Origin: an uncultured Verrucomicrobiota bacterium
GTDB lineage: Bacteria; Verrucomicrobiota; Verrucomicrobiia; Opitutales; Opitutaceae
Assembly (NCBI GenBank): GCA_903904685.1
Contig: CAIVDS010000114.1
Location: forward strand, 1 to 64,000
Direction of reading: 5' to 3'
Length of the DNA stretch: 64,000 nucleotides
Shown in pieces: positions 22,530 to 64,000 of the stretch. Each line of letters opens with the position of its first letter. The stretch's first letter is position 1. The notes beneath the pieces are model-generated. The model was not told the origin of the DNA. It saw only the letters and a list, made by a program, of their open reading frames with translations, and did not search any database. A program made the position numbers and the translations under genes.

Positions 22530-22592
22530 GGGTGTTTTTCTTTCAGGGATTCATTCATGGATCAAACTCGCCGCGACCCCTTTGGCTTATCT

Positions 22593-22865
22593 TCATTTCT
22601 TGCGATAGGTTCTTGTGCAGGAAAATCCGAATAATCCTATGGCTGAAATAAAACAGAATGCGCTGCCAACTGTGGAAATCCGATCACTCCAATATGCATT
22701 TCTGGCATCTTCTGTATAATTTTTCTCTTTATTTCGTCCCACGATAAAATACCCGACTTCGTCTTTTCCCGGCGGATATTTTAGAAACGGCATAAGAAAT
22801 ATAATAAGTCCGAATCCAAGAATAAGCAGGGCGAAAGAAAGTGATAGCATATGTTGGGGCTTCAT
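22593..22865 (-). CDS. Small membrane protein of unknown function (two predicted TM segments)
   Basis: MKPQHMLSLSFALLILGFGLIIFLMPFLKYPPG...GSAFCFISAIGLFGFSC; start at ATG 22865. Confidence 0.5.
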   Translation of the reverse strand: MKPQHMLSLSFALLILGFGLIIFLMPFLKYPPGKDEVGYFIVGRNKEKNYTEDARNAYWSDRISTVGSAFCFISAIGLFGFSCTRTYRKK

Positions 22866-22980
22866 GTTTTGCCGATCAGAGTTTTTAGGCCAAAGGGGTT
22901 TGGTGATTTGGCTAAGACATGAGGAGGAGATACCACGCCAAAGGGGCGCGGCGAGTTTTATCAATCAGCTGCGGACACGG

Positions 22981-23301
22981 TCAGGACGACGGGCGGTCGA
23001 GGCGCACCAGGCAGTGGCCGAAGTCGATCTCAAACGTGCCGGGCGCCGGACGGAAGGCGGGAGTCAGCGAATACATCCGGCCATACACCGACTTCACTAC
23101 GCCGAGTTTGAGCATCAGCGCCATGTGATGGGAGGCCATGCCCCGCGACCGCCCCATCCGTCGCCCCAGCTCATTGACGGGCAGCACAGGCTCCTTGCAC
23201 AGCTCGCGCAGCGCGATCCATCGTTCCGTGCGGCCCAAGAGACTCGTGACTTGCTTCAGATTTAGCGCCGGTGCGGGGATTGTCGGGTTGGTTTCGCTCA
23301 T
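22981..23301 (-). CDS. Small winged helix-turn-helix DNA-binding protein, divergent from array 1
   Basis: LLGRTERWIALRELCKEPVLPVNELGRRMGRSRGMASHHMALMLKLGVVKSVYGRMYSLTP: ArsR/MarR-like wHTH. Confidence 0.75.
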   Translation of the reverse strand: MSETNPTIPAPALNLKQVTSLLGRTERWIALRELCKEPVLPVNELGRRMGRSRGMASHHMALMLKLGVVKSVYGRMYSLTPAFRPAPGTFEIDFGHCLVRLDRPSS

Positions 23302-23311
23302 AAGATGAAAA

Positions 23312-23324
23312 ATCGGCCTCCGAT
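23312..23324. promoter_or_regulatory. Palindrome upstream of the wHTH gene (candidate operator)
   Basis: ATCGG-CCT-CCGAT perfect 5-bp inverted repeat about 10 bp upstream of the wHTH start. Confidence 0.3.
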
Positions 23325-23390
23325 GGCCTGTTTTTGGGTAAAATCGACGTTTTTAGGGGTTCAGCACCTCATTTCGGGGTATTTTCGATG

Positions 23391-23726
23391 GTTTTTGGCC
23401 TTTTGACAATAGTTTTTACGCTTACACCGACAACTTTTACTATTACACCGATAGTTTATCCGCCCACGCGGATAACATTTCAGACTACACGGCTAGTTTA
23501 TCCGGTTACATCGGTAGCTTTTTATATTACTTAGCTAACTTATCTTATTACATGGCTAGTTTGTCTTATTACATGACTAACTTTTCTTATTACCGCGCTA
23601 GCTTTTTATCTTACCGCACTCGGTTTTATTCCTACCGCGCTAGCTTTTCTTATTACATGACTAGGATTTTCTATCACACGGCTAGTTTTTGTTCTTACAC
23701 GGCTAGATTTTACCCCTGCCGCGCTA
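23391..23726. repeat. Array 1: about 16 degenerate tandem units, 21-bp period, T-rich
   Basis: Consecutive 21-mers from 23391: GTTTTTGGCCTTTTGACAATA, GTTTTTACGCTTACACCGACA, ACTTTTACTATTACACCGATA, GTTTATCCGCCCACGCGGATA, ACATTTCAGACTACACGGCTA, GTTTATCCGGTTACATCGGTA, GCTTTTTATATTACTTAGCTA, ACTTATCTTATTACATGGCTA, GTTTGTCTTATTACATGACTA, ACTTTTCTTATTACCGCGCTA and so on. Confidence 0.93.
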
Positions 23727-62985: not shown

Positions 62986-63489
62986 CAACACGCCAACCGG
63001 ACACCCCAATGCCAAAACCAGACGCCCCAGTGGAAGAAATCCTCACATCAATGGCGTAATCGCTCACATCAGTGGAACAATCCCTCACATCAATGGCGTA
63101 ATCCCTCGCATCAGTGGAACGATTCCTCTCATCAATGGCGGAATCGCTCACATCAGTGGCGTAATTGCTCACGTCAGTGGAGGAATCCTTCACGTCAATG
63201 GAGCAATTCCTCTCATCAATGGCGTAACCGCTCTCATCAATGGCGTAATTGTTCACATCAGTGGAACAATCCCTCACGTCAGAAGCGTAAATCCTCTCGC
63301 CACAAGCGTAACTTCTCTCACCAGAGTCGTAATCTGTCACGCCAGCGCCCTAACCGGATGCGCCACTACGCTAACCGGACACACCAATGGCCTAACCGGA
63401 CGCGCCACTGCGCTAACTGGACACGCCAACGTGCTAACCGGACGCACCAACGCCCTGATTGGACGCGCCGGAAGCCCTTTTGCACGCAA
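62986..63489. repeat. Array 2: about 24 degenerate tandem units, 21-bp period, two subfamilies
   Basis: Consecutive 21-mers, e.g. 63049 CAATGGCGTAATCGCTCACAT, 63070 CAGTGGAACAATCCCTCACAT, 63091 CAATGGCGTAATCCCTCGCAT, 63112 CAGTGGAACGATTCCTCTCAT ... 63385 CAATGGCCTAACCGGACGCGC, 63406 CACTGCGCTAACTGGACACGC, 63427 CAACGTGCTAACCGGACGCAC. Confidence 0.95.
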
Positions 63490-63649
63490 CGATATCTGAA
63501 CGGCACAGGAAACCGCGCTTCTAAGACGCACCGGAAGTCGCAGTTACGCGGGTAATACTTCAATTGCACCTCCCATGATGCCAACGCAAAGCCATCCCGC
63601 CCCGTTTCCCCTCCGGCCACTGCCTTCCGTCCACCGCCGCAGGCGCGCC

Positions 63650-63823: not shown

Positions 63824-64000
63824 ATGGCTGACTCAAACTCACCCACCCCCACGCCCGACGATCCCAACTCGGAGAAGGCCAAACGCCTTCGCTCCGTCAT
63901 CAACCAGGCCCTCTCCGCCGAGGTCACCCTCGGAGGCGCGGTCGCCGCCGCCGCCGCCAAGGTCGAATACGCCGCCGCCCTTGCCGCCGAAGGCATCGAG
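63824..64000 (+). CDS. N-terminus of an Ala-rich hypothetical protein, cut by the window end
   Basis: MADSNSPTPTPDDPNSEKAKRLRSVINQALSAEVTLGGAVAAAAAKVEYAAALAAEGIE, open to the window edge. Confidence 0.55.
   Translation, partial: MADSNSPTPTPDDPNSEKAKRLRSVINQALSAEVTLGGAVAAAAAKVEYAAALAAEGIE

Follow-up and report, generated by a model that had tools for sequence, protein, structure and literature searches.

Dispersed degenerate tandem arrays with an exact 21-bp period upstream of winged-helix and orphan genes in a bacterial genome

The window, i.e. the whole stretch of 64,000 nt analyzed here (contig C114, positions 1-64000, of a fragmented 3.23-Mb host assembly of 114 contigs), contains two arrays of degenerate tandem units with an exact 21-bp period, and at least 26 such arrays, each of roughly 300-500 bp, are present in the host genome, most of them shortly before members of two otherwise unknown gene families. 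An array lies directly upstream of a small winged-helix (wHTH) gene in all eight of its genome copies, and directly upstream of a 240-aa orphan gene in ten out of ten copies whose upstream region is on the contig. We assign about even chances to the reading that the array is a helically phased, DNA-level cis element in a dispersed family of cassettes organized as array, leader and gene. No description of such arrays was found in the open-access literature.

The relevant features of the window, with array limits placed by a periodicity scan plus eye, are the following.

22557..22586, plus strand: 30-bp inverted copy of a segment of the 3' repeat; it closes off the variable ORF
22596..22865, minus strand: small variable ORF behind the ~115-bp repeat (90 aa, membrane-like)
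22864..22980, minus strand: dispersed ~115-bp repeat directly 3' of the wHTH gene, also found after the C31 and C99 copies and partially elsewhere
22981..23301, minus strand: winged-helix gene (106 aa, ArsR/SmtB-like), with eight genome copies, each behind a 21-bp array
23302..23390, minus strand: leader separating array 1 from the wHTH gene; its A-tracts are spaced by 10.5 bp and lie in helical phase with those of the array, and the leader is conserved at each wHTH copy
23391..23726, minus strand: array 1 (16 units, 21-bp period, type T1; unit approximately TAGCSRTGTAATAAGAAAAGC in gene orientation)
63004..63490, plus strand: array 2 (about 23 units, 21-bp period, type T2; unit approximately CATCAATGGCGTAATCGCTCA, unrelated to the unit of array 1)
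63824..64000, plus strand: first part of the orphan gene (240 aa) that follows array 2 and runs on to C114:64543

Array 1 had been noticed in a preliminary description of this DNA as a block of about 16 in-register units, and our analysis confirms 16 units with zero indels at window positions 23391-23726. Identity at lag 21 is 0.65, versus 0.28 expected from composition, and is comparable at lags 42, 63, 84, 105 and 126; moreover, TRF independently detects the array with periods 21 and 84. The units mostly end in CTA, as had been described, with 1.66 bits in each of columns 20 and 21; columns 4 and 6 of the unit are invariant, and others are free. The block is also the AT-rich island it was said to be (GC content 0.39 vs 0.607 in the whole window), but the additional recurrence at 8-11 bp is absent, identity at lags 10 and 11 (0.17 and 0.15, respectively) being below expectation. 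The units are contiguous, with no spacers, and thus differ from the constant repeats alternating with unique spacers that characterize CRISPR. With array 1 as the query, a BLAST search of the host assembly yielded about nine more loci. Together with the adjoining winged-helix gene, array 1 forms part of a repeat, about 0.9 kb long, that is dispersed in the genome (90% to C99, 94% to C31), and the C99 array exceeds array 1 by 21 bp.

The cassette is read on the minus strand in the order 21-bp array, leader with 10.5-bp A-tracts, 106-aa wHTH gene. The encoded protein matches HTH_24, MarR_2 and ArsR-type profiles, as well as the NmtR, CadC and SmtB sequences of solved structures; its AlphaFold model, obtained from a two-sequence input, has a pLDDT of 48, too low for the model to be used. 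The slot of the variable ORF is occupied by a CdiI_3 immunity protein at C31 and by a zinc-ribbon protein at C99, the ORFs behind three wHTH copies being small and unrelated (CdiI_3, zinc ribbon, DUF202-like). The partly inverted repeats around the variable ORF (22557-22586 and 22864-22980) look like a cassette slot. The 3' repeat of the wHTH cassette recurs at C31, C99, C21, C56, C4 and C43; at the loci examined, the small gene that follows it differs from copy to copy.

Array 2 is the same kind of element as array 1, and a similarity search with it against the host assembly gave five further loci. The orphan protein encoded behind it (240 aa) has 15 matches in the genome, of which 12 cover its whole length or almost all of it; no Pfam or NCBIfam match was found for it, nor any PHROG match for the copy in the window. 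Two copies of the orphan gene, at C113 and C26, carry in-frame 21-bp repeats in the N-terminal coding region (L076:4743-4980, L075:5334-5636), encoding Pro/Thr/Ala-rich heptads, and thus the periodicity extends from intergenic into coding DNA.

Throughout the host genome, unit sequences are mostly unrelated between loci (e.g. GTTGGGAATAGTTTTTTCGAT at C98, AAGAACGAGTGGTTTCGCGCT at C14, ACTAACTATGAAGTAAGCCTA at C21), and grouping by similarity of unit profiles yields about ten unrelated families, all with period 21. Several families span different gene types, T1 and T2 each being found with both wHTH and orphan genes, and T4 with orphan and restriction-modification genes. All significant pairs of unit profiles at gene-bearing loci agree in how they are oriented to the gene, also where the genes are of different families (gene-less arrays, for which orientation was picked by similarity, were left out of this count). 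Arrays that have neither a wHTH nor an intact orphan gene are located near accessory or defence genes, such as Mrr (C56) and a type IIG enzyme (C43), and behind the arrays at C91, C49 and C112 only a remnant of the orphan gene is present. At C21 (L102:11278-13940), a C19a-type array with its leader directly precedes two genes, for a restriction endonuclease of the Eco29kI type and for a cytosine methylase, which occupy the place expected for the orphan gene.

In 458 kb of host DNA (about 1/7 of the genome) scanned for periods 9-60 without reference to known sequence, seven strong tandem arrays are present, each of them with period 21. In relatives sampled for tandem arrays (G002, G003, G006, G008, G009, G010, G011 and G016, comprising congeners and one other member of the family), 21-bp arrays are found at orphan or wHTH genes with one exception, and the few remaining tandem repeats have other periods. 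The exception is a weak 21-bp array in G010 (L110:5440-5720) beside GmrSD-AlbA and PIN/NYN genes, with neither gene family nearby. The congener G002 has tandem repeats of periods 32 and 39 (L135:16315, L130:10838), and no 21-bp array is present in the sampled DNA of this genome.

Among 141 genomes searched, the wHTH or the orphan gene is present in four congeners (G003, G006, G010, G011), where the homologs have a 21-bp array upstream, yet with other units (the array in G006 is weak). G159, which belongs to another genus of the same family, has a distant homolog of the wHTH gene that is directly preceded by an array of 42/21-bp periodicity, and G033 contains a C-terminal fragment of the orphan gene with no array. 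A search of genome contigs produced one relative of the wHTH gene, on the MAG contig JANXRL010000160.1, and none of the orphan protein. One more copy, on contig C88 of G077 (another genus), was discarded, since it matches host C12 over 1939 bp with 100% identity; probably this contig is shared by the two assemblies or is misbinned in one of them (L205, L215). The preliminary description had named the lack of arrays in relatives, or a period not conserved there, as evidence against its observation; the congeners keep the period, and the observation survived.

The spacing of the units is conserved much more strictly than their sequence. Neighbouring units typically differ by 27-50%, and in 32 arrays (524 units) 22 indel bases are observed against 3,400 substitutions (1:155). 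In the leaders behind wHTH arrays the ratio of indels to substitutions is 1:21 (the sequence pairs being non-independent), so that indels relative to substitutions are about sevenfold rarer in the arrays than in the adjoining leaders. The differences are distributed unevenly over the 21 columns (p<=0.012 in 31 of the 32 arrays). Near-identical units of varied lengths, as in Borg-type repeats or slippage products, are not observed; the units are degenerate and the period is always 21. Selection on spacing, as had been proposed for array 1, is thus supported by about ten unrelated families at 21 bp, by the rarity of indels and by retention of the period in congeners. An exact rhythm with fully different letters suggests selection on the spacing of DNA, not on sequence, RNA or protein.

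The helical phase can be followed into the leaders. A-tracts spaced by 10.5 bp are observed in the leaders of all wHTH loci and of the C24/C91/C49, C26 and C113 groups, that is, in four leader families (p from 0.003 to 0.037 for the wHTH, C24, C26 and C113 groups), while 3.4% of control upstream regions have p<=0.01 for such A-tracts. At type T1 loci, the A-tracts of the leader are 4 to 30 degrees off the helical phase of the A-tracts in the array; this agreement could partly reflect the common origin of leader and array. Nine other leaders of orphan genes are mostly without phased A-tracts. Power in the conserved columns of the units peaks at the 10.5-bp harmonic (p=0.001 by permutation), which is suggestive, given p=0.076 against an autocorrelated null. 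Predicted curvature, calculated with wedge values, is raised in most arrays, with a positive mean z. As a universal property curvature was rejected, since by the same wedge values C19a, C100, C56b and C21b are not above control. Palindromic units as half-sites for the wHTH protein were rejected as well, showing no general excess across the arrays. The iteron-like or curved-DNA role suggested in the preliminary description is compatible with the wHTH gene downstream and with A-tracts in the phase of the array, but its curvature part does not hold for all arrays.

According to the mechanism that we propose, each array would serve as a row of sites exactly two helical turns (21 bp) apart. With such spacing, a protein bound at each site, or a bend within each unit, would point to the same side of the helix throughout, and, if the function depends on phase, indels would be purged. 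The unit sequence would turn over freely by point mutation and by duplication of blocks of whole units, the latter arising when unequal exchange or slippage adds or removes multiples of 21. In wHTH cassettes, that of the window included, the likeliest reader would be the small ArsR-like protein encoded immediately downstream, which may coat its own array and repress its own promoter in or beside the phased A-tract leader; it could also act in trans on arrays of the same type before orphan or restriction genes. For arrays without a wHTH gene, the orphan protein may be one candidate reader. As arrays of types T1 and T2 are found before non-wHTH genes too, and for several types no wHTH partner is recognized, autoregulation would not be the whole story. 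We favour an operator or scaffold for the control of mobile accessory genes, to which the wHTH protein, where there is one, would probably bind.

The explanation that we rank as the main rival, while considering it unlikely, is common descent with concerted evolution and no function: one ancestral 21-bp array would have been carried with the genes, with unequal exchange maintaining multiples of 21 during sequence drift. Higher-order blocks are present (42 and 84 bp), the length difference between the C99 array and array 1 is one such multiple, and arrays persist after gene loss at C91, C49, C112 and C12, all of which agree with this explanation. However, it does not account for the indel to substitution ratio of 1:155 in the arrays versus 1:21 in the neighbouring leader, nor for the uneven conservation over unit columns; moreover, about ten complete turnovers should have let some arrays drift to 20 or 22 bp. 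It is also quite unlikely, in our estimate, that the arrays are a platform for recombination or mobility, i.e. the ends of accessory-gene cassettes at which cargo (the orphan gene, wHTH, restriction genes) is exchanged by homologous or site-specific recombination. Here the same array and leader are indeed found before differing cargo (the orphan gene at C24 vs Mrr at C56; the orphan gene at C19a vs Eco29kI with the methylase at C21), copies of arrays lie at several contig ends, and the distribution among relatives is sporadic. Still, recombination is impossible between unrelated unit families, no recombinase gene was seen accompanying the array, and neither a defined element end nor a target duplication was found.

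Less probable again is a role at the RNA level, where the array would be transcribed as a long 5' leader or as a repeat RNA (similar to a type III antitoxin or a regulatory RNA). Such a role would agree with the constant orientation of arrays to the gene across gene families and with the skewed composition of the gene strand at several loci, and array 1 folds somewhat better than shuffled sequences (z -1.98). At most loci, however, folding is unexceptional compared with controls of the same period, array 1 has no Rfam match, and the exact period of two DNA turns and the phased A-tracts are left unexplained by an RNA reader. The particular version put forward in the preliminary description, a structured RNA leader of gmd, is not supported: the gmd upstream regions of congeners that were examined have no 21-bp array, so array 1 is not a gmd leader, and the constant orientation of arrays towards the wHTH or orphan gene also opposes it. 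Hardly credible is the coding of seven-residue repeats (21 bp being seven codons). The period is divisible by three, an open frame runs through some arrays (array 1 has one such frame), and the N-terminal coding repeats of the orphan gene at C113 and C26 have the same length; yet the C21 array, beside an intact wHTH gene, contains at least five stops in each of the six frames, stop counts per frame are not depleted compared with column shuffles, there is no 3-bp signal in column conservation, and the GC content of arrays is as low as 0.32-0.39.

Beyond the phased cis element itself, we tentatively suggest that the arrays belong to a class of elements selected for the two-turn 21-bp rhythm of DNA, not for sequence, and acting as a phase-dependent scaffold that marks and controls mobile accessory genes; such a scaffold might be used by two unrelated protein families and might outlast complete turnover of its units. 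Repeat arrays of bacteria are normally recognized by sequence, while the approximately ten families described here share only the two-turn period, the orientation and the downstream gene family; since the units are unrelated and the period common, selection on helical phase alone is directly testable. The arrays also open a first way into the study of two gene families of which little is known, and of the possible control or exchange of accessory genes near restriction and immunity genes.

Curved DNA formed by phased A-tracts occurs near bacterial promoters. The host loci resemble it in the 10.5-bp A-tracts between array and gene and in the two-turn spacing of the array; unlike it, they have extended arrays of 9-24 degenerate units, and curvature is not predicted for all of them. 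With type III toxin-antitoxin systems of the ToxIN kind (PMC8860590) they share the placing of repeats ahead of a single gene, oriented alike, but the 21-bp units are shorter and more numerous, no conserved RNA fold is present, and the products of downstream genes have no recognized toxin domains. Borg elements carry tandem repeats that are nearly perfect and vary widely in unit length (PMC9879509). These are similar in being numerous and locus-specific, with unrelated units, genic and intergenic location and restriction to one genome type (PMC9879509), whereas the host arrays have degenerate units of a constant 21 bp, lie for the most part between genes and are associated with two gene families. 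In iteron centromeres of the TubRC/ParRC type, the small winged-helix protein TubR coats the repeats and represses the operon (PMC5016525), and the wHTH cassettes are similar in having a small wHTH gene behind a block of direct repeats upstream of an operon. In particular, the direct-repeat array upstream of a wHTH gene, as in type III partition (TubZRC), is observed for 8 of 8 host copies and in G006 and G159; no TubZ-type cytomotive GTPase is encoded by the ORFs behind three wHTH copies. The wHTH cassettes differ from TubRC in being present in many chromosomal copies with no TubZ-like partner gene seen behind the wHTH gene, in having wholly different unit sequences at paralogous loci, and in sharing their 21-bp arrays with the unrelated family of orphan genes.
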